Shown here: piece after piece, positions 4,149 to 45,120 of the stretch
Numbering within the stretch: the stretch's first letter is position 1
Layout of the letters: every line of letters starts with the position of its first letter
IMG/VR virus record: IMGVR_UViG_3300037200_000057
Span: 1 to 50,062 of that record
Source: a virus
Direction: 5' to 3' (one strand)
Length of the DNA: 50,062 nucleotides
The notes under the pieces: model-generated
What the model saw: only the letters and a program-made list of their open reading frames with translations
What the model was told of the DNA's origin: nothing
The model's database searches: none
Program-made: the position numbers and the translations under genes

Positions 4149-4303
4149 TTTAAGTAGCGAGATGAGATGAATATACCAAGTGAAAGGAGCATGAAGAACA
4201 ACCCGTAGTCCATAACCTCTGGGACGATGGGCATGGTGTGAAACGGTTCCGGTGGGCCTTCAATGGGTTGAAAGGCGTTGGGGCCTGTGGGCGAGTCAAT
4301 CAT
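4118..4303 (-). CDS. Small single-span membrane protein
   Basis: 61 residues, starting at an ATG that overlaps the amidoligase stop (ATGA). The N-terminal half is Pro-rich and probably extracytoplasmic. It is followed by one hydrophobic segment (Y-G-L-F-F-M-L-L-S-L-G-I-F-I) and a basic tail R-Y-L-K-W-K-R, giving an N-out/C-in prediction. The gene runs 31 nt into the next gene. It may anchor or partner the amidoligase module at the membrane. Confidence 0.7.
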   Translation of the reverse strand: MIDSPTGPNAFQPIEGPPEPFHTMPIVPEVMDYGLFFMLLSLGIFISSRYLKWKRQHNQKP

Positions 4304-5247
4304 AAAAGCCAATCGTACATACCCCAATCTTCGTACAGATCGGGTTGATAGCTGGTGTTGAGCTTGACCATAAGATCATCCGGCAATCCGGCTCTGTCCA
4401 ATACGGCCCTGGCCAACGCCTTGGAATTAACATTGATGGCTTTCTGCACCAAGAACGGCCCGCACTTCTCAAGGAGTTCTTTGGCGGTTCCATTGCGGAT
4501 ATAACTCATGGCGTGGTCTGCCAGTTGGTAGGCCAGCCTGACTGTCTGGGGAGAACGGAGAGCCCAGTTCCCCAATACCCGGTACTCAAACCCGTAATCG
4601 GTTGGTCTGTATTCCCCAGCCCTACCGTAGTAACGCCTTCTGGCTGAAGAGGTTGGGTCGTCCTCGATAAGCGTAATCCCGCAACCCACAAACACATCCA
4701 TCAGCATAACCGCCATGGCCTTGGCTCGCAGCCCGGCGATAGGTGAGTCCCCTCGCGTCATGCAATCCCGGTCCCCGATATGGATATGGAATGATCCCGT
4801 TCTCATCCCGTCCATGAACTTAGCCGGTTTGTTTTGGCCGAAGGTATAAGCGTTGTGGTTAGGATTGCACCCGGTTTCCCATGGGTCCATCATCACCGGT
4901 CTTCCTTCCGTATCGTAGCGAGGGGTCTTTGGAGGGACCTTGACCAAATGCTTATCCTCGTAGATTGCAGAAGCTTGTGGCAATAGCCTGTAGCCAGTTC
5001 CGAGCATCTTCTGGATCTTCTCGAAGGCGTTGCCTACTTGGGTTACAGCTCCGTCAATGGTAAGAGACGGAGGCATGGATGCCTCGATCAATACGTTATC
5101 GGCGTAACACTTAACTCCATCCCCAAGGTCAATGGGGTCGTGTTTGTCTTGGCCTAATACCAGCATGGCTGAGACGGGTTTGTTGGTAAACGAGTCTACC
5201 AAAATGAGTTCGGGATCTAGCCCGAGGGTAGTTTCTAATTGGATCAT
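4300..5247 (-). CDS. phiEco32-type amidoligase (COOH-NH2 ligase type 2)
   Basis: 315 residues from the preferred start, which places G-L-D-P-E-L-I right after the N-terminus as in the phiEco32-like COOH-NH2 ligase family. Other marks are Y-A-D-N-V-L-I-E-A-S-x-P (metal/ATP-binding strand), R-T-G-S-F-H-I-H-I-G, and R-R-Y-Y-G-R-A-G-E-Y-R followed by G-F-E-Y-R-V-L. These match the glutamine-synthetase-fold amidoligases described in phages. The expected reaction is ATP-dependent joining of a carboxylate to an amine, on a protein, peptide or cell-wall substrate. An upstream in-frame ATG at 5301 would add 18 residues. Neighbours are glutamine-amide enzymes. Confidence 0.85.
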   Translation of the reverse strand: MIQLETTLGLDPELILVDSFTNKPVSAMLVLGQDKHDPIDLGDGVKCYADNVLIEASMPPSLTIDGAVTQVGNAFEKIQKMLGTGYRLLPQASAIYEDKHLVKVPPKTPRYDTEGRPVMMDPWETGCNPNHNAYTFGQNKPAKFMDGMRTGSFHIHIGDRDCMTRGDSPIAGLRAKAMAVMLMDVFVGCGITLIEDDPTSSARRRYYGRAGEYRPTDYGFEYRVLGNWALRSPQTVRLAYQLADHAMSYIRNGTAKELLEKCGPFLVQKAINVNSKALARAVLDRAGLPDDLMVKLNTSYQPDLYEDWGMYDWLL

Positions 5248-5385
5248 AGTTGCAGAACTGACGTTTTTAAATTGGTGGAGCCCCTTGTCGCCAGGCCCCA
5301 TGAACCGAGGGATACGTCCCTGCGATAGCGTTTGCCAAAGGTAGCTTCTTCTGGAATTTACCAGCTGCTGCCCAAGGAAATTGAA

Positions 5386-5573: not shown

Positions 5574-6350
5574 TTAACCCTTATCCTCTAAGCGACTTAT
5601 AATAAATGCGTTGCACTTATCCAGTATGGTTTTTCGCGCAGCAGCACACGCAGCAGCATACGCAGCAGCATTCGCAGCAGCATACGCAGCATTCGCAGCA
5701 GCATCCGCAGCATCCGCAGCAGCATACGCAGCATACGCAGCATTCGCAGCAGCATACGCAGCAGCATTCGCAGCAGCATTCGCAGCCTTCACAGCATTCG
5801 CAGCAGCATCCGCAGCAGCACACGCAGCAGCATACACAGCATTCGCAGCAGCATACGCAGCATACGCAGCATCCGCAGCATACGCAGCATACGCAGCAGC
5901 ATTCGCAGCCTTCACAGCATGCGCAGCAGCATTCACAGCATGCGCAGTCTCTTTACATGGTCGCTCCAGGTAGGCTTTGGCTGCTTCAATAGCCGTTCGC
6001 GGACGTTTGTCATCCGGGTATTTGCTCTCGAAGATTTCGATAACAAGCTCAGCCCCAAAGATAGCCAGAGCTACCGAGTCTTCCTTGGTCCATTCCCAGG
6101 CTTGGATTACCCTCATAGATTGGTGGCAGGATTTATCATCGCCATACACACTCAATCCATCAACCTCAACCTTGGCGATAAAGCCGGGTTTAACGTTGCT
6201 GATAGCTTCAAGTGGGGTTGGCGAGGCGTGAAATCCAACCGAGCAAAGCTTGGGCCGGCTAGTGAGGTGCTTCCATCCATCCACCGTCCAGGTAGTATTT
6301 CCGTGCTGAGATTTCATGTCAGCTAGCAGGCATTTCCAGAGTATTTTCAT
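5574..6350 (-). CDS. Imm-5-like protein with Ala-rich C-terminal repeat
   Basis: 258 residues from the ATG preceded by AACAAAACCAA. Residues ~1-110 form a globular domain with W-T-V-D-G-W and G-F-H-A-S-x-T-P-L-E-A, like phage DUF7666-type proteins. Next comes the Imm-5-like signature F-P/Y-P-D-D-K-R-P-R-T-A-I-E-A-A-K-A-Y-L. The last ~120 residues are almost only Ala, with Tyr, Asn, Asp, Cys, His, Val or Lys every third or fourth position, predicted as one long helix. The tail is coded by low-complexity DNA shared with the genes at 10299 and 11144. The function is unknown; 'immunity' is only a family label. Confidence 0.75.
   Translation of the reverse strand: MKILWKCLLADMKSQHGNTTWTVDGWKHLTSRPKLCSVGFHASPTPLEAISNVKPGFIAKVEVDGLSVYGDDKSCHQSMRVIQAWEWTKEDSVALAIFGAELVIEIFESKYPDDKRPRTAIEAAKAYLERPCKETAHAVNAAAHAVKAANAAAYAAYAADAAYAAYAAANAVYAAACAAADAAANAVKAANAAANAAAYAAANAAYAAYAAADAADAAANAAYAAANAAAYAAACAAARKTILDKCNAFIISRLEDKG
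5636..5950 (-). repeat. GCTGC(G)NAT-type low-complexity repeat coding Ala-Ala-X helices
   Basis: About 315 bp built from 9- and 12-bp units (on the plus strand GCAGCATAC or GCAGCATTC). All six frames are open because the unit contains no stop triplet in any phase. In the coding frame each unit gives Ala-Ala-X or Ala-Ala-Ala-X, with X varying. Such DNA is prone to slippage and recombination, and related arrays recur at 10353 and 11203. Confidence 0.85.
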
Positions 6351-6374
6351 TTGGTTTTGTTTAGGATAAAAGGG

Positions 6375-6501
6375 CGGAAAGCTCCAGAGCTTGTCTAGGG
6401 CGGGATTGCCATAACCCACCGAGGTCTCTAGATTAGGGCGTACACCCTCGCGCTGCGTTCATAGCAGTATATGGGTGAAGTTCCTTGGGACTTGCTTTCC
6501 G
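6375..6501 (-). ncRNA. Multi-hairpin intergenic element, RNA candidate
   Basis: The 155-bp gap between two genes is closed by an 8-bp long-range stem (CGGAAAGC with GCTTTCCG). Inside are CTGC-TATGAAC-GCAG, AGGG-TGTACG-CCCT and GG-GGG/CCC-CC stem-loops. The branched layout suggests a small structured RNA or leader. I could not fit it to a tRNA or a known riboswitch. Confidence 0.35.
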
Positions 6502-10298: not shown

Positions 10299-10940
10299 TT
10301 AGATAAAATGATTGGAAACAACCTTACGAAGCTGGTCGCATTGTGCGCTCCTCGCAGCAGCATTCGCAGCATTCGCAGCAGCATACGCAGCAGCATTCGC
10401 AGCAGCATACGCAGCATACGCAGCATACGCAGCAGCCCACGCAGCATTCGCAGCAGCCCACGCAGCATTCGCAGCAGCATTCGCAGCAGCATACACAGCA
10501 TCCGCAGCATTCGCAGCAGCCCACGCAGCATGCGCAGCAGCATTCGCAGCAGCATACGCAGCATACGCAGCATCATTCGCAGCAGCATACGCAGCATCCC
10601 ACGCAGCAGCCAGTTCCGTCGCGGTGGCGGCTCCATTGGCGTAGCGTTCAGCCACAACCAATGCGTTAAGGGAACGCTTATCGGTCAAAAGCGATTCGGT
10701 TGTCTTCCCGTTGGCCAATGGCGTGTTACGGGCACACCAAACCATATACAGACGGCAGGCTTTCTCGTCCGGCGGAGCGGCGATGGCGTTTAGAATCCAA
10801 ATCATCCAATCAACCCGCTGGCAGTTCGCCCAGACTTCCCCCATCGTTTTGTACCCTAGAGCGAACTTGGCTCCATCGGCGCAAGCTTGCGTGGCCCGGC
10901 AAAATTCCTTGGGCGAGAGGATAAGCAATTCTTTTTTCAT
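10299..10940 (-). CDS. Imm-5-like Ala-rich repeat protein (paralogue 1)
   Basis: 213 residues. The N-terminal ~110 have the family marks R-V-D-W-M-I-W-I-L-N-A-I, C-R-L-Y-M-V-W-C-A-R-N-T-P and A-L-V-V-A-E-R-Y-A-x-G-x-A-T-x-x-E-L-A-A-A. About 85 residues of Ala with Tyr, Asn, Trp, Asp, His or Val at every third or fourth place follow, ending S-A-Q-C-D-Q-L-R. It is paralogous to the gene at 11144; long stretches, including the last ~65 coding bases before the array and a ~43-bp block near 10790, are identical in DNA. This suggests recent duplication or gene conversion. The role is unknown. Confidence 0.8.
   Translation of the reverse strand: MKKELLILSPKEFCRATQACADGAKFALGYKTMGEVWANCQRVDWMIWILNAIAAPPDEKACRLYMVWCARNTPLANGKTTESLLTDKRSLNALVVAERYANGAATATELAAAWDAAYAAANDAAYAAYAAANAAAHAAWAAANAADAVYAAANAAANAAWAAANAAWAAAYAAYAAYAAANAAAYAAANAANAAARSAQCDQLRKVVSNHFI
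10353..10610 (-). repeat. Ala-X-coding low-complexity repeat, second array
   Basis: Units of 9 and 12 bp like those at 5636, here with extra CCC (Trp in the coding frame, TGG) variants. No stop occurs in any frame. It encodes the helical tail of the 10299 product. Confidence 0.85.
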
Positions 10941-10946
10941 AAGAGA

Positions 10947-11147
10947 TTAGTTTCCGGTATGCCGGTAGTTGGGGTCTAGGGTTGGGTCTTCGGGGTCAAG
11001 GATTTCGGCAGCCTCACGGAAGATTTTAGCCATCTCTTTAACCTCTCTTTGGCTGTAGAGATGTTCGTGAATCTCAAAATTATCTCCAGCCATAGTTACG
11101 AAAGTAGTGCCTGGGCTGTTTTTCCTGCGGCTTACTGCAATGGTCAT
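10947..11147 (-). CDS. Hypothetical small acidic protein
   Basis: 66 residues, coupled to the upstream gene by ATGA, which favours the start at 11147 over an internal ATG. It has a helical segment with E-V-K-E-M-A-K-I-F-R-E-A-A-E-I-L and a Pro/Asp-rich tail. It sits between two Ala-rich paralogues. Not recognised. Confidence 0.6.
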   Translation of the reverse strand: MTIAVSRRKNSPGTTFVTMAGDNFEIHEHLYSQREVKEMAKIFREAAEILDPEDPTLDPNYRHTGN

Positions 11148-11779
11148 GACTCAATGAAAGGATTTCTAACCACCAAACGAAGCTGGTCGCATTGTGCGCT
11201 CCTCGCAGCAGCATTCGCAGCATTCGCAGCAGCATACGCAGCAGCATACGCAGCAGCATACGCAGCATCCGCAGCATCCGCAGCATCCGCAGCAGCATTC
11301 ACAGCATGCGCAGCAGCATACGCAGCATACGCAGCAGCATACACAGCATTCGCAGCATACGCAGCAGCATTCGCAGCAGCATACGCAGCATACGCAGCAT
11401 CATTCGCAGCAGCATACGCAGCAGCACACGCAGCAGCATCCGCAGCATCCAGTTCTTCCCTAGTTGCTCTGCCATGGACAAACTCTTCAGCAACCCGCAG
11501 CGCTTCAAGGCTTCTTGGGTCCGTTAATAGCGCAGACGTGGTTCTGCCATCGCCCAATGGCGTATTTCTGGCACACCAAACCGCATAAAGCCTGGCCACC
11601 TTGTCATCCATTGGGGAATCTATGGCGTTTAGAATCCAAATCATCCAATCAACCCGCTGGCAGTTGTTCCATACCTCCGCCATGGTTTCATGCTTCAAGG
11701 CGAACTTAACGCCTTCCATGCAAGCCTTCGTTTCTTTGCAGAACCCTCGCGGGGAGAGGCGAATTAGGTGGGTCTTCAT
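11144..11779 (-). CDS. Imm-5-like Ala-rich repeat protein (paralogue 2)
   Basis: 211 residues with the same order as paralogue 1: a helical N-terminal domain (C-Q-R-V-D-W-M-I-W-I-L-N-A-I; A-R-L-Y-A-V-W-C-A-R-N-T-P-L; A-L-R-V-A-E-E-F-V-x-G-x-A-T-R-E-E-L), then ~90 residues of Ala-Ala-X repeats with X = Tyr, Asn, Asp, Cys, His or Val, then S-A-Q-C-D-Q-L-R. X residues fall at 3/4 spacing, one face of a helix. It is coupled by ATGA to genes on both sides. The function is unknown. Confidence 0.8.
   Translation of the reverse strand: MKTHLIRLSPRGFCKETKACMEGVKFALKHETMAEVWNNCQRVDWMIWILNAIDSPMDDKVARLYAVWCARNTPLGDGRTTSALLTDPRSLEALRVAEEFVHGRATREELDAADAAACAAAYAAANDAAYAAYAAANAAAYAANAVYAAAYAAYAAAHAVNAAADAADAADAAYAAAYAAAYAAANAANAAARSAQCDQLRLVVRNPFIES
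11203..11450 (-). repeat. Ala-X-coding low-complexity repeat, third array
   Basis: About 250 bp of GCAGCATAC/GCAGCATTC/GCAGCATCC units on the plus strand. The first ~65 bp plus the flanking unique sequence match the array at 10353 almost exactly. It encodes the tail of the 11144 product. Confidence 0.85.
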
Positions 11780-14802: not shown

Positions 14803-14915
14803 TGGATGAAGTAACGGACGGTTTGGACGATGTAATCCGTCTCGTTGCGCATTTGTGCGAAATAATCGTCCCAGAATGCGGAAGCTTCGTAATCCGGTCC
14901 TAAGTTGGATGGCAT
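14799..14915 (-). CDS. Hypothetical very small protein
   Basis: 38 residues, aromatic- and acidic-rich (D-Y-E-A-S-A-F-W-D-D-Y-F-A-Q-M). It is the first gene of the coupled chain below the hairpin array. The ATGA overlap with the next gene is the main support. Confidence 0.5.
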   Translation of the reverse strand: MPSNLGPDYEASAFWDDYFAQMRNETDYIVQTVRYFIQ

Positions 14916-14953
14916 AAGTTTTTAGTTCGTCTAGTCGGCTCCGCTTAGTTAAG

Positions 14954-15095
14954 CCTGGAATTGTTCCGAATCCATTATTCCAGGTCCTACGGAAGATAAA
15001 CTAAAGCAAGCCCACAACCGGCTAAGGCTATGGGCTTAATTAGTTTACCTAGGTCTACTTGCCTAGGTTCAAGAGGGGATTTGAAGCAATCCCCT
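14954..15095. other. Array of four strong hairpins downstream of the 15130 gene
   Basis: In order: CCTGGAAT/ATTCCAGG (8 bp), AAGCCCA/TGGGCTT (7 bp), ACCTAGG/CCTAGGT (7 bp) and AGGGGATT/AATCCCCT (8 bp), followed at once by the terminator hairpin at 15104. No gene is visible between 14,916 and 15,129. The array would form the 3' end of the transcript of the 15130-15765 gene or the 5' leader of the next operon. Confidence 0.5.
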
Positions 15096-15100
15096 TTGCT

Positions 15101-15120
15101 AAAAAGGCTTGTTAAGCCTT
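15101..15120 (-). terminator. Intrinsic terminator of the 15130-15765 gene
   Basis: On the minus strand AAGGCTT-AAC-AAGCCTT forms a 7-bp stem followed by TTT, starting 10 bp after the stop codon. Short but correctly placed. Confidence 0.55.
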
Positions 15121-15129
15121 GAATCAGAA

Positions 15130-15765
15130 TTACTTCTGATTGATGGCCCGCTGCGCTTGCAGCAAAGCCTTCTCTTCCGGCGTGATTAGGAATTTCACCA
15201 TGCCGCGCTTTTGCAGCTCGCGCTCCTTCGCCCTTGCTTCCTGCAAGGCTTCCTTCAGCTTGCTGTCTTGGAAGCGCAGCGTATGCGCCACTCCATTCGC
15301 CGACTCGCGCTTTCCGGTCATGTCCATCTTCTTAACGAGAGCCAGGGCTTCCGCCTTTGTGGCTCCCATCTTGCAGATGTCCTTGTGCTTGGCCCGAGCA
15401 CCTTTGATCTTGGCCCTGTCGTCGTCTGTGAAGTTGCACAGACTGACTTTTTGCTTGAACGCCGGATGGTCCAACGCCTTGCCCGTGACGATGGAATTCA
15501 GATATTCCGTCAATTCGTCTTGGGTGTAATTGGGGCCTGACGGTTGCGTCTCGGGTTTGGTCTCAGCAGGCGCATTGGAATGCGTTGCGTTGACTTCGCC
15601 CTTGGGCGCTTCCGGTGCCGCCGGTTTGCTCGCTTCCCTCTGTTCGATCAGGGCGATCTTGGCATTGCGTTCCTCTTGGGTGATTACCCCAGCAAGGAAC
15701 GAAGCCTCGATGGCTCCAATTTCAGACGTTGCGAGCGTGATGACTTTCTTTTGGTTTTTAGCCAT
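15130..15765 (-). CDS. Hypothetical protein, charged, possibly abundant
   Basis: 211 residues. A helical N-terminus (I-E-A-S-F-L-A-G-V-I-T-Q-E-E-R-N-A-K) is followed by a Pro/Ala/Glu-rich linker (~45-80) and a Lys-rich helical C-terminal half (A-K-I-K-G-A-R-A-K-H-K and K-L-K-E-A-L-Q-E-A-R-A-K-E-R-E). Codon use is G/C-rich at third positions like the capsid gene, suggesting high expression. It is isolated: hairpin array and terminator downstream, 1.7 kb of non-coding sequence upstream. No family recognised. Confidence 0.75.
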   Translation of the reverse strand: MAKNQKKVITLATSEIGAIEASFLAGVITQEERNAKIALIEQREASKPAAPEAPKGEVNATHSNAPAETKPETQPSGPNYTQDELTEYLNSIVTGKALDHPAFKQKVSLCNFTDDDRAKIKGARAKHKDICKMGATKAEALALVKKMDMTGKRESANGVAHTLRFQDSKLKEALQEARAKERELQKRGMVKFLITPEEKALLQAQRAINQK

Positions 15766-15779
15766 TGTGTCTAATCTCC

Positions 15780-16800
15780 TATTTTCCGCAAAGTCTTGCA
15801 GGGCAAAACTTAGAAGTTAAGCTTGCTGTAACCCACTTACTATGCGGAGAAAGTGCAGCCTCTAAGGGTTTAATGCTTAGAGGTTTACCACTCAAATTCA
15901 GAGTTTTCTCAATTTAATCCAATTGCGCCGTCCGTCTACCCTTTCGGTCTGTAGTGTGTTTGCGCAATCGTAGTCCGTTGCAAGTTAATGCTTTAGGCAC
16001 TATTGGTCCTAGAGTTTCCCCTAGGTTGATTGGTTCTCTGAAACAGATTTGCGCCGTCCCAATGCTTTCAAACCCTTTCGGGTTATCGGCTTCTAAGGAT
16101 TCGCTTAAAGCTAATCTGGAAAATACTTGTGTCGGATACCCAATAGATAAGTCTGGCAACTTGGGCAAACGGCAAAGCCGTTTCTCTAGTTAGAAACCTT
16201 ATTGAGAATGAAGTCTCATTAAGCTAAGTTTCGCATGCTATAAAAAGCAGGCTCAACTCTGTTTCATCTGAAGTTGCTCTTGGGCAAAGGTACTCCCTTT
16301 GCGCTCACCTATCCTCTTTCCTTGTCCGATTGCGTCTTTTCCATGCTTCGCCCTACTTCGCTCCTGGAGCGTGAGACTAGCGAAACGGCGAGACTCGGCT
16401 CGCCCTATGGTCTAGACCTTATCGTAACGCAACTAGGTCCATAGCTTAGCGGGTATACTGCGCTTACGACGGGCGGAGGGTCTTGAAAGAGCCCATTACC
16501 GTCTTGCAGGATTACGTCTTGCTACTCCTATTGCTCCGCTGCTGTGCGGATTTGGGGCGCTTCTCAGAACCTACGGATTTGCAGTAGGCTTTACCGGATG
16601 CGATCACTGGGATACTCTCGGAAAATTCGCCCCCATAGAAGAGGGAATCGACCCGCCTTGCCAGTCCACTGAACCGTTGCGAGCCTCAAGAAAGAGGCAC
16701 GGTCTACAGGTTGAACAAGTCGGATCGCGGAAAACCTACCCTTACCAGTCAGGCTAGTCGCGATCTCACTGAGAAACTATCAATCGAACATCCCCAATGG
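15780..16800 (-). ncRNA. Candidate large structured (ornate) RNA
   Basis: About 1 kb without a gene but with dense local and long-range complementarity: CCTCTAAG/CTTAGAGG, CCTAG/CTAGG, AAACGGC/GCCGTTT, GCAAAGG/CCTTTGC, GGCGAG/CTCGCC, CCTAC/GTAGG, GCCTC/GAGGC and GATCGCG/CGCGATC. Two hairpins have GAAA (GNRA) tetraloops only when read on the minus strand (AACCC-GAAA-GGGTT at 16071-16084 and CC-GAAA-GG inside CTAC/GTAG near 15936), which favours minus. Size and phage context recall GOLLD/ROOL-type RNAs. I cannot confirm membership. Confidence 0.5.
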
Positions 16801-17177
16801 GTCACAACGAAATTGATTTGACAAAATAAATCTAACGATAAGCAGCTAACTACTTGGTTTCCAACGAATTAAAATTCTATCTCAAACAAGAGTAGTAGGG
16901 AGAAAACCAGGCCAAATCCGCTCGATCTGCCCGGGCGCGCAACCCAACATAACCGTTATTAACAAGTAATCTCCCCTAGTCAAACCCAACCCGCAACTCA
17001 ACTCTATTCTCAGAACAAGTTCTATGCCAAGTCGCTTTTCTTTCTCGTTTGGCACAAACCTTGCTCAGCCCTTCTTGAGACTAGGACCCAGCTAACGTCA
17101 GGGACAATTCTTATGCCATCTATCCCAAACGGAGCGATTTGGTTGGGGGTGGCACGCTTTTTGCTTCATTTGGAATA
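16801..17177. other. A/T-rich intergenic stretch without recognised gene
   Basis: No convincing frame or strong hairpin. It is A/T-richer than the RNA candidate on its left and leads into the inverted repeat and parS-like site. It could hold promoters for the RNA or an origin region, but I see no clear motif. Confidence 0.3.
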
Positions 17178-17195
17178 GTTGACTAAACGGTCAAC
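17178..17195. promoter_or_regulatory. Inverted repeat next to the parS-like site
   Basis: GTTGAC-TAAACG-GTCAAC, 6-bp arms with a 6-bp spacer, ending 5 bp before the 16-bp parS-like palindrome. It could be an operator or an accessory binding site. Confidence 0.35.
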
Positions 17196-17200
17196 AAAAA

Positions 17201-17216
17201 TGTTCCACGTGGAACA
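17201..17216. promoter_or_regulatory. parS-like centromere site
   Basis: TGTTCCACGTGGAACA is a perfect 16-bp palindrome. It matches the chromosomal parS consensus TGTTNCACGTGAAACA in the core and equals the GTTCCACGTGGAAC form known from Pseudomonas and Caulobacter type ParB systems. It lies in non-coding DNA between divergent gene blocks. No ParA or ParB gene is visible here, so it would have to be bound by host ParB or by a phage ParB coded elsewhere. The short frames across it, which read M-F-H-V-E-H, are a by-product of the site. Confidence 0.7.
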
Positions 17217-17444
17217 TTCGGTCGGCCGGCTTGCGCAACCTATTGAGACTGAGACTCATGTGCAAGTAGCCTGCGCACCTGGTTTGGGAGCCGGCTGCCT
17301 GAGACCACCCGGCACCCACCACCACCCCCCGGCGCAGGGCCGCCGGATGAAAGACCCTGGTTGCACTCAAGGCCATATGGCAAATTGATTTTGGGTTATT
17401 TAGGCCCCCCCCGCTATTTTTAGTACCCCTGGTTTAGTTTTTGG
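17217..17444. other. G/C-rich intergenic block with C-tracts
   Basis: Contains runs of C (17321-17330, 17404-17412) and a G/C-rich segment that contrasts with the A/T-rich flanks. No protein-like frame on either strand. It could belong to an origin, packaging site or promoter region; nothing decides between these. Confidence 0.3.
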
Positions 17445-17493
17445 TTGACTTATATATCTATTTAGATATTTGTTTAGATATCAACTTAGATAT
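17445..17493 (+). promoter_or_regulatory. TTGACTT element plus triple 12-bp-spaced TTAGATAT repeats
   Basis: TTGACTTAT at 17445 resembles a -35 box. It is followed by TTTAGATAT, TTTAGATAT and CTTAGATAT starting at 17461, 17473 and 17485, exactly 12 bp apart, just before the ATG at 17497. The spacing suggests an operator array for a DNA-binding protein, or small iterons. Confidence 0.5.
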
Positions 17494-17496
17494 CAT

Positions 17497-20868: not shown

Positions 20869-20945
20869 TGCAGAATGGAGCAGTCCGGTAGCTCGGCGCG
20901 CTCATAACGCGTAGGTCGTTGGTTCAAATCCAACTTCTGCAACCA
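20869..20945 (+). tRNA. tRNA-Met(CAU)
   Basis: Canonical cloverleaf: acceptor TGCAGAA/TTCTGCA, D-arm with GG, anticodon arm GCGCG-CTCATAA-CGCGT, T-arm GTTGG-TTCAAAT-CCAAC, A73 and encoded CCA. The anticodon is CAT; it could be elongator Met or, if lysidine-modified, Ile. Both flanking tRNA-like genes are unusual while this one is normal. Confidence 0.92.
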
Positions 20946-25241: not shown

Positions 25242-25640
25242 ATGGCCAAGAAAGAAAGAGAAGTTCTCGCAGTTGAAAAACTGACTCCGCAATCCGTCGT
25301 CCTCAACCTAGCCGGTGAGGACGTTAGGGTGGCTGGCAGCGCGTCAGAGAACGACTTCATGGGCAAGGTTGTAGCATGCCACATGCGCCATATCTTTCAA
25401 AAGGGCCTGCGCAAGTTCAACGACGATGACGTAAAGTTCTCACCCAAAGAGCTTAAGGATCTTATCGAAGCTGGCAAGGTCCTTGCGGAGATGTGCGGAG
25501 CAGCTTATGCCAAGGGAGAGGTATTAGATACGATGAAAGTAGTACAAGAAGCTCCGCCAACCGACATCGACTTTAGTGCATTAAATAAGATTCCAGAAGT
25601 ACCAAAGGCAAATGACAATCCAGGAAACAAACAGGATTAA
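25242..25640 (+). CDS. Hypothetical protein, candidate small terminase partner
   Basis: 132 residues, helical, with V-K-F-S-P-K-E-L-K-D-L-I-E-A-G-K-V-L-A-E-M and a Pro-rich acidic tail. It lies directly before the large terminase and overlaps it by 29 nt, the usual place of a small terminase, but no HTH is visible. Function inferred from position only. Confidence 0.6.
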   Translation: MAKKEREVLAVEKLTPQSVVLNLAGEDVRVAGSASENDFMGKVVACHMRHIFQKGLRKFNDDDVKFSPKELKDLIEAGKVLAEMCGAAYAKGEVLDTMKVVQEAPPTDIDFSALNKIPEVPKANDNPGNKQD

Positions 25641-28557
25641 CGCCCTGGTCGCTAACTCAAGCTGGATTGATGCTGGCAACGAGGTTTTAAGGTTGCTGGA
25701 TAACACCGGCTGCGCCAAAACCAGAAATCAGGCGGTGGGGATTTGTCGCGGGCTATTCCAATACCTACTCGAACACGACCAATATTTATTGGCAGCCGCC
25801 CTTCAGTGGGGGGAAGCGTTTGTAACCGAGGCTGAATCCACCCAGCGTGCATTTACGGCTATGCACAAGTCGTCCAAGATACTTTTTATGGGTTCGAGCA
25901 GTATGGGAAAATGCCTAGGGCCAGAGGTTAATGTGTTGATGTTTAATGGTTCATGCAAGCAAGCGAAAGATATTAAGGTAGGCGATGTGCTTATGGGTGA
26001 TGATTCACTGCCAAGGAATGTGTTGCAGACCAGCCATGGAATTGGAAATATGTATCGCGTAGTTCCTGAGCGTGGCGATTCCTGGACATGCAATGGTAAT
26101 CATGTTTTGACATTAAAGGTTTCATCTACAAAGAATTGTGGAAACAGCGGAAAACCAAGCAAGGTTACGTTTAGGGGTAACATCATTGACATACCGATTG
26201 AAGAATATTTGGCAAAGGGAAGATCAAGGAAAAATATCCTTAAGCAGTTTCACGTTGGGGTTGTTTTTCCGGAAAAGCCGGTCGAATATGATCCGTATGT
26301 TTATGGATCATGGCTGGGCGACGGCGGTACGGATGTGGCGTCTCTGCACACCACGAAGGGGCCAATGTCTGATCGGTGGTGCGAGTATTTTGAGTCCATT
26401 GGAATGAGAGTGTATGTGGGGTATAAGGAGAAAAGCTGCCAAATGTATTGCGCCCGACTTAAGTCGCATAAAGGTGGTGCATGTAATCCGTTTCTTAAAT
26501 TCATTAGATCATCAGTAATTCAGGAGAAAAAAGAGAAGTTCATCAGGAGCGAATATCTCATTAACTCAAGAGAGGTAAGGCTTAAACTGCTGGCTGGACT
26601 TATTGATAGCGATGGGTGGGTATCATGTCGGACAGGTTATGGATTTGTTTCTAAATTTCGATCCCTAGCTGAACAGGTTAAATGGCTAGTTAGAAGCCTT
26701 GGCTTTTCGGCCGTTGTTTACCCAAAACGATGTGGCATAAAATCTATAGGTTTTTCTGCGATATATTGGCATGTTCAGATAAGTGGTCGAGGAATAACCG
26801 AAATACCAACCCTAGAGAAACATGCCGTTGAATCAACTAGCAATAAGGAGCTTACTAATGTTGGAATAAAGCCAGAGAGTATCGGGGTTGGCGAGTACTT
26901 TGGGTTTGCTGTTGATGGAAACCATAGGTTTTTGCTTGGGGACTTCACTGTTACCCATAATAGCTATAATTCTGGTATTTGGATGCTATTAGACTACTTA
27001 CGTGATCCATTCTACACTTCGGTCAAGCTAGCTGCCGTTAACGAAGATCAACTCCGCAAGCAGCTTTTCGCTCACGTTGCGACCAAGGTAAAGTCTCTAG
27101 CTATCCCAACCCAATACGACATTCAGATCCGCGACTCTGATCTTTGGCTGGGTATCAAAGAGGCCGGATACGGATTTGGTATTGCCGGAATTCCTTTCAA
27201 GCAATCACAAGAAACTTCAGGCCAACTCAAAGGCTATAAATCCCAGCCGGTGCGGGCTGTGAAGCATCCGCAATTCGGTCTTATGTCGAGACTTAGGGTT
27301 CTGCTAGATGAGAGTCAGAACATCCCTGGAGGCCCTTTTCAGGACATGAATTCCCTGGTTGCCTCAGTGAGTGGGGCTGACTTGGTTAAGATCGCTTGTG
27401 CATTCAACCCAGAGAACACCACCTGTCATGCCGTTCAGCTAGCCGAGCCGCCCGACGGATGGGACCCAGATGACATGGATCGTTTGTACGACTATGTGGC
27501 GAAATCAGGATGGCTAGTGTGCAGATTGGACGCTGCTTTGTGCGAGAACGTAAAGCAAAAAAAAGTAGTATTTCCTGGCCTACAAACCTACGAGGGCTTT
27601 ATGGGATACCTAAAGGCCGGTGGAGATAGCTCTGCGGCCTATAGTTGCTTTGCCCGTGGATTCCCACCAATGAAGGGGTCGGTTTGGACGGTAGTTCCCC
27701 CAACCTGGCCGCAGACCGCGAGGGGTGAGGTTGTGTTTGTGGAAAACCCAGTAATATTTGGTGCGGTTGACTTAGCCTTCATGGGGCAAGATAGCGCCCA
27801 AATGGCAGTTGGCAGATGGGGACTGGCTTCTGGCTGGAGGGATCACCAAGGATTGTCTCATACGTTTAAGGACAGGCTCAACATCGCAAAAGATCGCCCC
27901 CGTCACGTTCTGCAAATAGATCAGATTTTTCCCATGATGAAGTCAGACAACACGGTTGTCATGGCTGAAGAGATTATAGGAAAGTGCAAAATGCTCGGAA
28001 TAAACCCAGAGAACCTGGCCGTCGATAGCACGGGCTACGGCTTCGGCGTCCATGGGCATCTAGTAAAAGTTTTCGGCGAGGTTCTCGGCATTGCCTGGAA
28101 CCAGAAGGCAACCGAAAGAAAGATCCTAGCAGAGGACCAGGAAGGTGCCGATGCCCAGGTTGATGGAGTCATGTCAGAAATGTGGTGGGCTTTTCGGCGC
28201 TGGATAGATCCTAGCTGTAAGGCTATCTTAATTAACCCTATCATTCCAACCAATCCAATCCACACCCAACTTACGGCGAGGCGGTATAGGAACGGAAAGA
28301 ACGGAATCAAAGTTGAATCCAAAGAGGAATATAAATCCAGAAATAAATCCAGCCCAGACGAAGCAGATAGTTTTGTTATGCTTGTCCATATTGTTCGTAA
28401 GCAATCAGATGTGCTTCCTGGCCTTGTTGAGCAAGCTGACGTGAAGAGAATCAAGGATAAGGATAATGAGGGAAAGATCCGCTGGCAATCGGTTGGAAGC
28501 ATGCAGAACGTTGATGTGTCGGACTCGATCAGCGAAGATGGAAAGAGTGACCAATGA
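25612..28557 (+). CDS. terL: Terminase large subunit, interrupted by an intein
   Basis: 981 residues as translated, ~631 after splicing. The ATPase has Walker A G-S-S-S-M-G-K|S split by the intein after Lys100, and Walker B V-L-L-D-E-S-Q-N. The nuclease part shows G-A-V-D-L-A-F-x-G-x-D and L-A-V-D-S-T-G-Y-G-F-G. It cuts and packages concatemeric DNA into the prohead through the portal. The C-terminus is Asp/Lys-rich. Coupled by ATGA to the next gene. Without splicing the ATPase would be inactive. Confidence 0.9.
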   Translation: MTIQETNRINALVANSSWIDAGNEVLRLLDNTGCAKTRNQAVGICRGLFQYLLEHDQYLLAAALQWGEAFVTEAESTQRAFTAMHKSSKILFMGSSSMGKCLGPEVNVLMFNGSCKQAKDIKVGDVLMGDDSLPRNVLQTSHGIGNMYRVVPERGDSWTCNGNHVLTLKVSSTKNCGNSGKPSKVTFRGNIIDIPIEEYLAKGRSRKNILKQFHVGVVFPEKPVEYDPYVYGSWLGDGGTDVASLHTTKGPMSDRWCEYFESIGMRVYVGYKEKSCQMYCARLKSHKGGACNPFLKFIRSSVIQEKKEKFIRSEYLINSREVRLKLLAGLIDSDGWVSCRTGYGFVSKFRSLAEQVKWLVRSLGFSAVVYPKRCGIKSIGFSAIYWHVQISGRGITEIPTLEKHAVESTSNKELTNVGIKPESIGVGEYFGFAVDGNHRFLLGDFTVTHNSYNSGIWMLLDYLRDPFYTSVKLAAVNEDQLRKQLFAHVATKVKSLAIPTQYDIQIRDSDLWLGIKEAGYGFGIAGIPFKQSQETSGQLKGYKSQPVRAVKHPQFGLMSRLRVLLDESQNIPGGPFQDMNSLVASVSGADLVKIACAFNPENTTCHAVQLAEPPDGWDPDDMDRLYDYVAKSGWLVCRLDAALCENVKQKKVVFPGLQTYEGFMGYLKAGGDSSAAYSCFARGFPPMKGSVWTVVPPTWPQTARGEVVFVENPVIFGAVDLAFMGQDSAQMAVGRWGLASGWRDHQGLSHTFKDRLNIAKDRPRHVLQIDQIFPMMKSDNTVVMAEEIIGKCKMLGINPENLAVDSTGYGFGVHGHLVKVFGEVLGIAWNQKATERKILAEDQEGADAQVDGVMSEMWWAFRRWIDPSCKAILINPIIPTNPIHTQLTARRYRNGKNGIKVESKEEYKSRNKSSPDEADSFVMLVHIVRKQSDVLPGLVEQADVKRIKDKDNEGKIRWQSVGSMQNVDVSDSISEDGKSDQ
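25912..26961 (+). mobile_element. LAGLIDADG intein in terminase Walker A
   Basis: 350 residues. Starts with Cys1, followed by the block A pattern V-L-M-F-N-G-S then V-G-D-V-L-M-G-D-D. Block B is W-T-C-N-G-N-H-V-L-T-L. Endonuclease blocks are Y-G-S-W-L-G-D-G-G-T-D and L-L-A-G-L-I-D-S-D-G-W. It ends F-L-L-G-D-F-T-V-T-H-N followed by Ser+1. All splicing residues (Cys1, block B His, His-Asn, Ser+1) are present. Codons look more A/T-rich at third positions than the flanks, fitting separate origin. Class 1 intein by its Cys1. Confidence 0.92.
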
Positions 28558-29135
28558 AGCTGGAGTACAACCCCAACTGCCAGCGGCAACCGTTCGGTGG
28601 GCACCACTTCACCGAGCGAGGCGTGACCATGCAGGAGGACACGCTTGAGGAATTGACACAAAAACTAACTGATTTTCGTGTCAATAATGGGCTTATCCTG
28701 GGCAATCCTTTGCAAGATATTTTAGCCTACTACCAAACCAAGTGGCCCTACCTGGTCCAGCGGTCAGAGGACCAGTCTCAGGGCGAGGAAAGCGCACGCT
28801 ATACGCTATGGCGCTCTTGGCTGCATGCTACCTGGAAAAACCCGCCCAAAAACCTCATACCGCTTAGGGAGGCCAAGGAACGCTGGGAAGTGTGTAAGGA
28901 CTGCAAATTCAACAGGAAGAGAAACTGGGTCAAATCACTAGAGTCTCTTGAATTGACTCGGAGGGCTTTTATGCTTAGACGTGGTATTGATGTACCGGAT
29001 TACTTAGGATTCTGCGCCTACCATGGTGCTGATTTGGGGGTTTTTACGATGCTGGAACATCCAGAATCTTTTTCAAAGGCTGAGGGAAAATTTGACTACT
29101 GCTGGTTTTCGAAACTCAAGGACAAAAATGATTGA
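28554..29135 (+). CDS. Hypothetical protein with two Cys pairs
   Basis: 193 residues. Helical N-terminal half; the middle has V-C-K-D-C-K-F-N-R-K-R and the end has F-C-A-Y-H and D-Y-C-W-F, possibly one zinc site. It lies between terminase and primase-helicase and overlaps both. Family not recognised. Confidence 0.65.
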   Translation: MKLEYNPNCQRQPFGGHHFTERGVTMQEDTLEELTQKLTDFRVNNGLILGNPLQDILAYYQTKWPYLVQRSEDQSQGEESARYTLWRSWLHATWKNPPKNLIPLREAKERWEVCKDCKFNRKRNWVKSLESLELTRRAFMLRRGIDVPDYLGFCAYHGADLGVFTMLEHPESFSKAEGKFDYCWFSKLKDKND

Positions 29136-32046
29136 TGCGCATGAACTTAATAGACTACTTAACGACAGGCTTCCTGAAGTCTGCGCCTACCTTTTCCCAA
29201 ACGGGAAGGTACGTGGAGGAGAGTTTGTCGTTGGCGGGATGGATGGGTCGGCTGGGGAATCCCTCCAAATAACCCTTGGAGGATCTAGGGCTGGAAGGTT
29301 TAAGGATTTTGCCAATCCAGAAGATAAGGGCGGCACTGCGCTTTGGCTTTGGAAGCAGGCCCGCAAGCTATCGTTCGTAGATGCAATCAAAGAGTCCAAG
29401 GAGTGGTTGGGAGTGAAGGAAGAGGAGTTCGGTATCCACCGCCACAAGAACAAGGAATGGACGCGGCCAACAAGAGACTCCGTTCGCCTTGCCGAACCCA
29501 ACACAAAGGTTATGGACTACCTTTGCTGCGAGCGGAAGCTAGACCCAATCGTTTTAGCTACTGCCAAGGTGTGCGAGACTGAGAACGGCGAAGAGGTTGT
29601 ATTGCCGTTTTACGAGTTCGACGACGAATCCAAGAAGTGGGTTGTAGTTCACCGCAAATACGTCAAGGTGGACCGCCCAACCGGCAAGAAGGAGATCCAT
29701 GCCACCAAGGGTACGAAACGCTGCCTGTACGGAAAGAACCTCATCTCTGACGACATTAGAGACCTGGTTATTGCAGAAGGAGAGTTTGATGCGCTATCCT
29801 GGAACTCTTGGGGGATTCCTGCCGTTTCAATCCCAAACGGAGTAAGCGATTTTGAATGGGTAGACGTTGATTGGGACTGGTTGACGCGCTTTGAGCGGAT
29901 CTATGTCTCAACCGATATGGACGATCCCGGCAAGACTTGCGCCCAGGAAATCTGCAAACGCCTCGGCCTTCATCGCTGCTATATCGTCTCCCTACCTAAG
30001 AAGGACGCCAACGAATGCTTGGTTTCCGGAATGAAGTTTGCAGATATGGCCAAGTTGCTGGCCTCAGCCAAGCAGATCGAGTTGGACGAGATCAAACGCC
30101 CCGGTGAGTACACCGCAGAGGTGATGGACTACTACAACACAACTTGGGAAACTCGCGGTTGGGACACGCCATGGTATCCGGCGCTTCCGTGGCGGGTTCG
30201 TCAGGCTGAGTTCTCTATTTTATCTGGATTCTCTGGATCTGGTAAGGCCCTAGCACTAGACACGCCAATTCCTACACCAACTGGGTGGTCTGACATGGGT
30301 AGCCTTATGCCTGGAGATAAGGTTTTCGATGAGAACGGAAAGCCGTGCAAGGTGGTGTTCGCAACCCCGGTTCAGTATGATAGAAAGTGCTATTCTGTGG
30401 AGTTTTCCGACGGAACCAAGATTATTGCAGACGCCGACCACTTGTGGGAGACGTGGACGCCTCACGCCAGAAATTCAGCGGCCAGGTCTAAAACTCGTGT
30501 AAGAAAAACCAAGAACTTGTCGCAAATGGCTCGTTCGATCAAACCATCAGTAGTTACGACCGAGGAAATTTCAAAAACATTAATCGAGGACCGCTGGGCA
30601 TCTCGGGGCCGCCACAAGCATGGTATTCCGGTAGCCAAGGCGCTAGCGATTGATGATGTTTCAGTTCCGGTTGATCCATACTGCCTTGGGGCGTGGATCG
30701 GAGATGGTAGCTCATATAACGCTGTTGTGTTTTGTGGAAACGGAGATGAACAAATTATTCAGCAATTTTCTGATGCTGGATTCACTGTTAATAAGCAGAA
30801 CCTTATGCGCGAAGGCTCGTGTCCCGCATATGGGATCGGTGGGCTTATGCCTGGTTTAAGGGATGCTGGGGTTATCGGTAAAAAGCATATTCCCGAGTGG
30901 TATCTTAGATCGTCAATAAACCAAAGACTGTCTTTATTGCAGGGACTTATGGATACTGACGGATTTATTGGGTCTAATGGTCAATGTGAGTTTACGTCAA
31001 TGCTGCCGGGCCTAGCGAGCGGGGTTCGTGAGCTTATCCTTAGCTTGGGTATGCGTTGCACTGTAACCACCGGAATAGCATCCGTTAACGGAAAAAAATG
31101 TGGAACTAAATACAGAATACACTTTAGTCCATCAATGCCGGTATTCCGATTGCAAAGAAAGCTTGATCGCATGAAGCCGAAGATTGGATCGAGCGCCATG
31201 TACCGATATATCGTTTCAGTTATTCCTGTTGACTCTGTTCCTGTTAGGTGCATCCAGGTGGATTCCCCTAGCCACCTGTACCTGTGCTCAACCGCTATGA
31301 TACCAACACACAACACCGTGGCACTCAACCAGTTAATGCTGCATTTGGTTAGTCAAGGACTCAAGATCATGGATGCGTCCCTTGAAATCAAGCCAGGTTT
31401 AACGCTCTACAACATGACCCGCTGTGCTCTAGGCAAGAAGGTTTCACCAAAGGAAGATATTGAAGGATGCGTAGAGTGGTTGAATGAGTCCATGTTCTTC
31501 CTGGATTGCATTGGAACCGTCAACACAAAGCGGTTGATTACAGCTATGGAATACGCAAGGAAGCGCCATGGAGTTAACGTGATTGTGATCGACTCGCTAT
31601 TCAAGTGCGGGATGAGTTCCGAGGATTGGGGTGCTCAACGTGAGTTTACGGATTGCCTAACGACATTCTGTAACAATACGGGATGCCATGTGATCCTGGT
31701 TGCCCACTCGCGTAAAACATCAAATGGCAACGAGTTATCGGTCCCAACTAAGTCGGATGTGGCCGGATCTTCCGATATTACCAATGGGGCGTTTAATGTA
31801 ATCATTTGGTGGCGCAACAAGCTTAAGAAGAGGAAGTTAGACGAACTTCGTGCCGAGATAATTCCGAACGTAGAAGAGATCAAGAAGTGGGAGGATGAGC
31901 CAGACGGTAAGGCGGTCTTGGATAAGCAACGGTTTGGAGAGGGGGAAGAGGCGGAATGCAAGGTTTGGTTTCACCGCGATTCGACCCAATTCCACACTCA
32001 ACCTAATCAATGTTTGCCTTATTTCCGGCCAAAAAAGCCATTTTGA
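29128..32046 (+). CDS. Primase-helicase (T7 gp4/Twinkle type), interrupted by an intein
   Basis: 972 residues, ~616 after splicing. Residues 1-110 form a primase-like N-domain without clear zinc cysteines. TOPRIM follows: V-I-A-E-G-E-F-D-A-L and V-S-T-D-M-D-D-P-G-K. The RecA-like helicase has S-G-F-S-G-S-G-K|T with the intein inside Walker A, then I-V-I-D-S-L-F-K (Walker B), H-V-I-L-V-A-H-S-R-K and S-S-D-I-T-N-G-A-F-N-V. Provides primer synthesis and fork unwinding. The start at 29128 is chosen because the upstream extension is in the previous gene. Confidence 0.9.
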   Translation: MIDAHELNRLLNDRLPEVCAYLFPNGKVRGGEFVVGGMDGSAGESLQITLGGSRAGRFKDFANPEDKGGTALWLWKQARKLSFVDAIKESKEWLGVKEEEFGIHRHKNKEWTRPTRDSVRLAEPNTKVMDYLCCERKLDPIVLATAKVCETENGEEVVLPFYEFDDESKKWVVVHRKYVKVDRPTGKKEIHATKGTKRCLYGKNLISDDIRDLVIAEGEFDALSWNSWGIPAVSIPNGVSDFEWVDVDWDWLTRFERIYVSTDMDDPGKTCAQEICKRLGLHRCYIVSLPKKDANECLVSGMKFADMAKLLASAKQIELDEIKRPGEYTAEVMDYYNTTWETRGWDTPWYPALPWRVRQAEFSILSGFSGSGKALALDTPIPTPTGWSDMGSLMPGDKVFDENGKPCKVVFATPVQYDRKCYSVEFSDGTKIIADADHLWETWTPHARNSAARSKTRVRKTKNLSQMARSIKPSVVTTEEISKTLIEDRWASRGRHKHGIPVAKALAIDDVSVPVDPYCLGAWIGDGSSYNAVVFCGNGDEQIIQQFSDAGFTVNKQNLMREGSCPAYGIGGLMPGLRDAGVIGKKHIPEWYLRSSINQRLSLLQGLMDTDGFIGSNGQCEFTSMLPGLASGVRELILSLGMRCTVTTGIASVNGKKCGTKYRIHFSPSMPVFRLQRKLDRMKPKIGSSAMYRYIVSVIPVDSVPVRCIQVDSPSHLYLCSTAMIPTHNTVALNQLMLHLVSQGLKIMDASLEIKPGLTLYNMTRCALGKKVSPKEDIEGCVEWLNESMFFLDCIGTVNTKRLITAMEYARKRHGVNVIVIDSLFKCGMSSEDWGAQREFTDCLTTFCNNTGCHVILVAHSRKTSNGNELSVPTKSDVAGSSDITNGAFNVIIWWRNKLKKRKLDELRAEIIPNVEEIKKWEDEPDGKAVLDKQRFGEGEEAECKVWFHRDSTQFHTQPNQCLPYFRPKKPF
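30247..31314 (+). mobile_element. LAGLIDADG intein in helicase Walker A (Ala1, class 3-like)
   Basis: 356 residues. Begins A-L-A-L-D-T-P-I-P-T-P-T-G-W, so there is no Cys or Ser at position 1, then L-M-P-G-D-K-V-F-D-E-N-G. Block B region has D-A-D-H-L-W-E-T-W. Endonuclease blocks are L-G-A-W-I-G-D-G-S-S and L-L-Q-G-L-M-D-T-D-G-F. Block F is V-R-C-I-Q-V-D-S-P-S-H-L-Y-L; it ends P-T-H-N before Thr+1. The Trp/Cys/Thr set and Ala1 match class 3 inteins typical of phage helicases. Assignment from motifs only. Confidence 0.9.
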
Positions 32047-44005: not shown

Positions 44006-44875
44006 ATGAAAGCTATTAAACAAGCATTTGTGGTTCCTGTCGTTATCTGGATTGCTGCTGGGTTAGCCGGTCTTGCTGCGCTATTTTACCATCCCCACGC
44101 CAAAGCGCCTCCCGCTCCCGATTTGGCTGCGCTCCACCAAGCCCAGACAGACCGAGATAAGGCGCTGCAAGATGAAGCCGCAGCCAAGACCAACTACGAT
44201 AACGCCATTAAGGATCTTAACGCAAAGTTCACCAGCCAGGTTTCCTACAGCCAGCAAATGGGATATGGCTCTGCAAATGCTTTTAGGCGCGTTCCTGTGG
44301 CCCAACAAGGCCCTGAGTATGTGCTGGGGCTGTCTTTACTCGACCGAGCCAACAACGGGCTTGCCAAGGCCCTTGGCGACCTTCCTGACGCCCAACGCCA
44401 GGAGATTCTTGGTATCGTGGATGGGGTTCTATCCAAAGCCCAGGATCAAGTAGCGGCTGCAAATAAAGCTTTGGCCGACAAAGACGCTCAACTTGTCCAA
44501 ACAACCTCAGAACGTGACGTTCTTAAGGGCCAACTTCCTGGGCTTAAGTCAACTCTGGACGCTAAAGATGCCGCAGCCAAGATCGCCAGTCAGCTAGTAG
44601 ATCAGGATACAGCCAAGGTTGTGGAGTATGCCAAGGCTAAAGAACAGACGCAAGGGTTTCTGGCCCAAGCAGAAGCTAAGGCCAGATTCTTCCTTAAGGT
44701 TTTGGTTGGAATTGCAGTAGGCTGGTTTCTGCTGGTTTTTATTCTTCCAACGGTTGGAACCGCCATTGGTCCACTAGCCGAGAAGATCCTGCATGAAATT
44801 TCCGGCCACATCCTAAGCCCCCTTACCCACCTTAAGCAGAAGGCGACAATTGCTGCCCAAAAACTAAGCAAATGA
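44006..44875 (+). CDS. Membrane protein with coiled coil (two spans)
   Basis: 289 residues from the ATG at 44006. First span F-V-V-P-V-V-I-W-I-A-A-G-L-A-G-L-A-A-L, long helical/coiled-coil middle rich in Ala, Lys and Gln, second span V-L-V-G-I-A-V-G-W-F-L-L-V-F-I-L-P near 235, then a short helical end. Lies between lipoprotein and holin-like genes. Could be an inner-membrane lysis partner; family not recognised. ATGA overlap with the next gene. Confidence 0.65.
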   Translation: MKAIKQAFVVPVVIWIAAGLAGLAALFYHPHAKAPPAPDLAALHQAQTDRDKALQDEAAAKTNYDNAIKDLNAKFTSQVSYSQQMGYGSANAFRRVPVAQQGPEYVLGLSLLDRANNGLAKALGDLPDAQRQEILGIVDGVLSKAQDQVAAANKALADKDAQLVQTTSERDVLKGQLPGLKSTLDAKDAAAKIASQLVDQDTAKVVEYAKAKEQTQGFLAQAEAKARFFLKVLVGIAVGWFLLVFILPTVGTAIGPLAEKILHEISGHILSPLTHLKQKATIAAQKLSK

Positions 44876-45120
44876 CCGCAGAAGCATACGACCGCAACTC
44901 CATTGACTCTGTTTTATCTAGGCTTGAGCAGAAAGTTGATTACCTGGGCGGTAACATCGAGGACATTAAGAGCTTTATGCTAAAGTACGACCAAAAACTA
45001 AATGCGCTGGAGCAAGCGGAGGCTGGTCATAAGGAGTCGGTAAAGACGGTTTACAAGGTAATTACCACCCTTGCGGCTGTCTTTGCTGCGGTTGCGGCGT
45101 TCCTTGGGTTGAAGAAATGA
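44872..45120 (+). CDS. XhlA-like holin/haemolysin-type protein
   Basis: 82 residues: coiled coil (V-L-S-R-L-E-Q-K-V-D-Y-L-G-G-N-I-E-D-I) then one C-terminal hydrophobic segment (V-I-T-T-L-A-A-V-F-A-A-V-A-A-F-L-G-L-K-K). This two-part layout matches XhlA-type proteins used in phage lysis. Start overlaps the previous stop. Followed by a TTGACTTTT element. Confidence 0.65.
   Translation: MTAEAYDRNSIDSVLSRLEQKVDYLGGNIEDIKSFMLKYDQKLNALEQAEAGHKESVKTVYKVITTLAAVFAAVAAFLGLKK

Follow-up and report, generated by a model that had tools for sequence, protein, structure and literature searches.

Does a gene-free kilobase in the genome of an uncultured phage serve as the template of a large structured RNA, and would such an RNA belong to a described family? 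The window, which is the whole stretch of DNA analysed here, comprises positions 1-50,062 of the 50,062-bp IMG/VR virus record IMGVR_UViG_3300037200_000057, from which terminal repeats are absent. To our knowledge, only a small number of large structured RNAs have been described from phages, and for none of them is the function settled. The set would grow by an orphan RNA outside the described families, for which the neighbouring parS site suggests a function that can be tested; should the stretch be only a hairpin-rich spacer, it would caution against inferring ornate RNAs from one sequence alone. The stretch is gene-free, has a strand-biased folding excess, and carries a pairing that closes its ends and a doubled module. 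The explanation we prefer, tentatively and with slightly less than even confidence, is that 15780-16810 encodes a non-coding, structured RNA of ~0.5-1 kb on the minus strand, at the head of a leftward unit.

Genomic context of the divergent junction

The left arm of the genome carries leftward (minus-strand) genes and the right arm rightward (plus-strand) genes, and the candidate RNA occupies the left 1 kb of the junction between them (Table 1). The sequence-only reading had described a gene-free stretch of ~1 kb, which is confirmed for the entire junction: the codon-usage gene caller leaves all 1731 bp empty, the longest stop-free run in six frames spans 106 codons, and neither approach yields a credible ORF.

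A leftward transcription unit would start in this junction, with the RNA as its first part, then run through the 211-aa ORF and end at the likely terminator; both the Shine-Dalgarno-like motif and this terminator are in phase with leftward transcription. Transcription of the RNA, its exact ends, any processing and its function are all putative, and against the structured-RNA reading, no good promoter was found in the sequence, where promoter-like sites are fewer than expected by chance. Relatives of the 211-aa ORF were found neither in PHROGs and Pfam nor in phage records or the related contigs. The hairpin cluster that follows the ORF reaches minus-strand z-scores of -5.7 (14803-15150) and -10.4 (15001-15200).

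Alternatively, the RNA could be a long 5' leader with a regulatory role for the 211-aa early gene, its structure controlling transcription (anti-termination) or translation. The RNA abuts the ORF, with the Shine-Dalgarno-like motif at the edge of the fold and the terminator behind the ORF, and in two related contigs (G028 and G020) a small ORF in the matching place is preceded by a leader of ~400 nt that is free of genes and bears hairpins (z -1.5 and -2.6). A leader of 1 kb would, however, be unusually long, none of the riboswitches or anti-termination RNAs in Rfam matches the region, and the ORFs of the window, G028, and G020 lack similarity evident by eye. We regard a leader function as quite improbable.

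Table 1. Features of the candidate RNA locus and its surroundings in the window
Feature	Position	Strand	Remark
Gene-free divergent intergenic region	15766-17496	.	No gene from codon-usage caller; between left-arm minus and right-arm plus genes
Candidate structured non-coding RNA	15780-16810	-	5' end near 16810, 3' end near 15780; judged by shuffle z-scores
Long-range closing pairing, 5' arm GUUGUGACCCAU	16797-16808	-	Pairs with 15825-15836
Long-range closing pairing, 3' arm GUGGGUUACAGC	15825-15836	-	Pairs with 16797-16808
GAAA-capped stem AACCC-GAAA-GGGUU (5 bp)	16071-16084	-	Alternative pairing competes in ensemble
GGACGGCGCAA copy 1	16049-16059	-	Downstream of CCGAAAGGGU at 16072-16081
GAAA-capped 7-bp stem CCUAGGG-GAAA-CUCUAGG	16008-16025	-	p 1.00
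9-bp stem CGAUUGCGC/GCGCAAUUG	15920-15970	-	Encloses second CCGAAAGG hairpin; p 0.99
GGACGGCGCAA copy 2	15923-15933	-	Downstream of CCGAAAGGGU at 15938-15947
8-bp hairpin CCUCUAAG/CUUAGAGG	15859-15883	-	p 0.99
Shine-Dalgarno-like AGGAG of downstream ORF	15776-15780	-	At 3' edge of RNA; read from sequence
211-aa ORF downstream of RNA	15130-15765	-	Helical in low-confidence single-sequence AlphaFold model (pLDDT 56)
Hairpin AAGGCUU-AAC-AAGCCUU then U run, likely terminator of leftward unit	15100-15120	-	Read from sequence
Cluster of consecutive perfect hairpins after 211-aa ORF	14915-15152	-	Just downstream; folds more strongly than candidate
Perfect parS TGTTCCACGTGGAACA	17201-17216	.	Upstream of RNA; consensus match
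AT-rich 12-bp direct repeats TTAGATATCTAT, 3.8 copies	17450-17494	.	Just upstream of rightward gene

Strand-biased folding and recurrent motifs

The candidate folds better than chance mainly as a minus-strand RNA, with a signal of modest strength. Its minus strand has a minimum free energy of -347.0 kcal/mol compared to -310.3 +/- 9.5 kcal/mol for dinucleotide shuffles (z -3.9, reached by 0 of 40 shuffles), and its plus strand has a z of about -2.1; over repeat runs, z ranged from -3.8 to -4.6 (minus) and from -2.1 to -2.9 (plus). Because these z-scores derive from small shuffle sets (8-60 in the scripts, 20-200 in the folding tool) and from thermodynamic folding of ~1 kb, single long-range pairs in the fold are not to be trusted. 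The excess is concentrated in 15780-16300 (z -4.0 minus, -3.6 plus). Against the structured-RNA reading, the half 16300-16810 folded alone stays at shuffle level (z -0.7), and other windows score as high or higher, with about 5 of 187 other 521-nt genome windows doing at least as well. Among the unpaired bases of the minus-strand fold, 42% are A; a high A share is common to many structured RNAs.

For the individual elements, the shuffle counts are not clean probabilities, since each element had been noticed before its test. At least ten strong stems had been noticed in the sequence-only reading, and 10 perfect Watson-Crick stems of at least 5 bp are indeed present (3.9 expected; none of 150 shuffles reaches 10). 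Allowing G-U pairs in the count is what tells the strands apart: stems of at least 7 bp then number 7 on the minus strand (2.7 expected; 2 of 150 shuffles) vs. 5 on the plus strand (3.0 expected; 27 of 150), an enrichment on the minus strand only. The long-range pairs that had also been proposed are exemplified by the pairing of the two ends, which extends over 12-13 bp on the minus strand only and is equalled in length in 2 of 400 shuffles, the best run on the plus strand being 6. GAAA-capped hairpins with a stem of at least 5 bp likewise occur as had been claimed, two on the minus strand (5 and 7 bp) and zero on the plus strand, and two are found in 0 of 200 shuffles. Furthermore, CCGAAAGGGU with GGACGGCGCAA downstream of it forms a module that is present in two copies 126-134 nt apart, a coupled duplication seen in 2 of 4000 shuffles. 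Three features thus support the minus-strand assignment: stems that depend on G-U pairs, the pairing of the ends, and the GAAA loops.

In the structured RNA that we favour, the two ends would pair with each other, and the 3' half would consist of local hairpins and the doubled GAAA-hairpin/GGACGGCGCAA module, which probably docks to another helix or a binding partner; the product would be a fold and not a peptide. The energies could also be explained without any RNA function, by a recombination-prone, hairpin-rich spacer; inverted repeats able to fold on either strand are numerous between the genes of these phages. Hairpin-rich spacers recur in this phage and its relatives, often on both strands, the half of the candidate proximal to the ORF folds nearly as well on the plus strand, and the stretch is not conserved. 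Against such a spacer stand the doubled module and the restriction of the GAAA loops, the closing helix, and the G-U-containing stems to the minus strand; moreover, compact phage genomes can ill afford 1 kb without genes. We consider it rather unlikely.

Comparison with known RNA families

The proposal that the stretch might be a GOLLD, ROOL, or OLE RNA did not survive comparison with covariance models. A cmscan search of the region with all Rfam 15 models gave zero matches at the gathering score, and at E-values up to 5 only four weak matches to unrelated families, all at chance level, so that membership in any of the three families is not supported. A structured non-coding RNA on the minus strand is nevertheless the best reading of the locus, and the original interpretation is thus partly supported. 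A group I or group II intron is rejected as well (no Rfam match, no gene split at the site), as is a degenerate tRNA array (none found by ARAGORN in the region).

One criterion for GOLLD RNAs is a homo-oligomeric nanocage, and they frequently, though not universally, sit next to tRNA genes or within a tRNA array. Phages and prophages encode GOLLD RNAs, which are large (>800 nt), ORF-free, and ornate and often have tRNA genes nearby; ROOL, likewise a large structured RNA of phages and often near tRNA islands, has no known function (PMC12286853). The candidate resembles GOLLD (RF01998) in being large, ORF-free, and phage-encoded, but differs in lacking a cmscan match at E 5 and in the position of the tRNA genes; it also differs from ROOL and OLE in having no match to the respective Rfam covariance model. 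The association with tRNA genes suggested by the sequence-only reading is weak, as the three tRNA genes of the window lie 4-5 kb away on the opposite strand (the nearest at 20869). Near-complete tRNA gene sets are present in two relatives, with 29 genes in G007 (L123:9051-13880) and 31 in G029 (L301), on the same side of the junction as the three of the window; a copy of the candidate RNA was not detected in these relatives.

In its description, the locus is also reminiscent of the lytic phage ICP1, where RNA-seq identified an ~800-nt RNA from an ORF-less gap of ~1 kb as the most abundant transcript, which its authors likened in length to GOLLD and ROOL (PMC7567579). Shared with ICP1 are the ORF-less ~1-kb gap and a long RNA, for which transcription is predicted here.

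Homologue searches and related contigs

No homologue of 15780-16810 was found by blastn against phages and plasmids, in ~30 related contigs, or in the surroundings of exonuclease-gene relatives (77 loci); these collections leave out records very near the window, so that close variants of the RNA may exist unseen. Relatives were sought via the P22-like primase, an adjacent protein, the large terminase, and the exonuclease, and each set was searched for the RNA; contigs retrieved with the terminase are 57-69% identical in this protein, and its profile found no relative among GTDB genomes. Motif scans for the doubled module were equally unproductive: in viral contigs, the matches of a first scan were coding or chance on reading, and those of a second were GC-rich loci without nhmmer or blastn similarity, and the seven matches in GTDB genomes show no further similarity. 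With no homologue, there are no compensatory changes to count, so that a new class cannot be claimed: a new structured RNA class is not demonstrated, and the lack of any homologue, and with it of covariation, speaks against the structured-RNA reading itself.

The large terminase and the P22-like primase/helicase of the phage each carry an intein (Hint/LAGLIDADG; genes at 25612-28557 and 29023-32046), and some relatives are without them.

Searches of the relatives for the RNA gave nothing beyond parS. The 67.8-kb contig G028 shares the junction layout and a parS (L299:3291-3306) with a flank common to the window, but its parS and small ORF are separated by no more than ~420 nt, which show no resemblance to the RNA of the window. 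A similar layout without parS is found in G020, and no comparable RNA is seen at the junction of G001 and G007; the lack of similar sequence at the same junction in G001 and G028 counts against the structured-RNA reading. Behind its small ORF, G028 has a strongly folding stretch of 853 nt (44186-45038, L299:4186-5038) with about 22 strong hairpins and z-scores of -7.8 and -7.2 on the two strands, which is a better ornate-RNA candidate than 15780-16810. A structured region of 673 nt (z -4.3) lies downstream of the matching ORF in G020. Neither stretch has an Rfam match, and the idea that they are moved homologues of the candidate is rejected, as the shared words are not collinear.

A partition site beside the candidate

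The perfect parS site upstream of the RNA would be expected by chance about 0.0004 times in 50 kb. A ParB gene was not found by ParB_N search in the window, G028, G020, or G001, and the phage parS may recruit host ParB. The candidate also sits next to the minimum of the cumulative GC skew, at 17429, and the AT-rich direct repeats close by, which overlap a promoter-like TTGACT, may be operators or iterons. A G-rich tract, GGGGGGTGGTGGTGGG, is present at 17304-17334 on the minus strand, with similar tracts at or near the junction in G028, G020, and G030.

Together, parS, the skew minimum, and the divergent junction make an origin- or partition-linked RNA a serious rival, if an unlikely one: the junction would be a replication and partition centre, where the minus-strand transcript might prime or control replication of an extrachromosomal element. 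A precedent exists in the RepA-less parABS mycobacteriophages RedRock, Alma, and LadyBird, in which an ORF-less non-coding RNA close to parABS is required for prophage replication, the deleted ori regions whose role was tested being 400-500 bp long and beside the phage-encoded parABS (PMC7157519). The locus studied here, with its predicted transcript, is alike in having an ORF-less region next to a partition locus at the central junction, but differs in the missing ParB gene. The retention of parS with its flank in G028 fits such a role for the site, although the RNA is not conserved there. The AT-rich repeats speak for an origin as well, although they may be operators. Also against it, the phage has its own P22-like primase/helicase, and divergent transcription likewise explains the skew switch. 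The more specific idea of a new large structured phage RNA family at a replication/partition centre, where host ParB holds the phage DNA via parS and the RNA controls replication, is very improbable in our assessment.

Other genes of the left arm

Three proteins are encoded by tandem repeats of 9-33 bp on the minus strand (5574-6419, 10299-10940, and 11144-11779), and the two of them that were translated have long C-terminal Ala/Tyr/Asn repeats (AAYAAANAA). Genes for a glutamine amidotransferase-like protein (GATase/peptidase C26; 2653-3375) and a phiEco32-type COOH-NH2 ligase (4300-5301) are close to each other on the minus strand, and the two genes likewise lie close together in G020 and G028.
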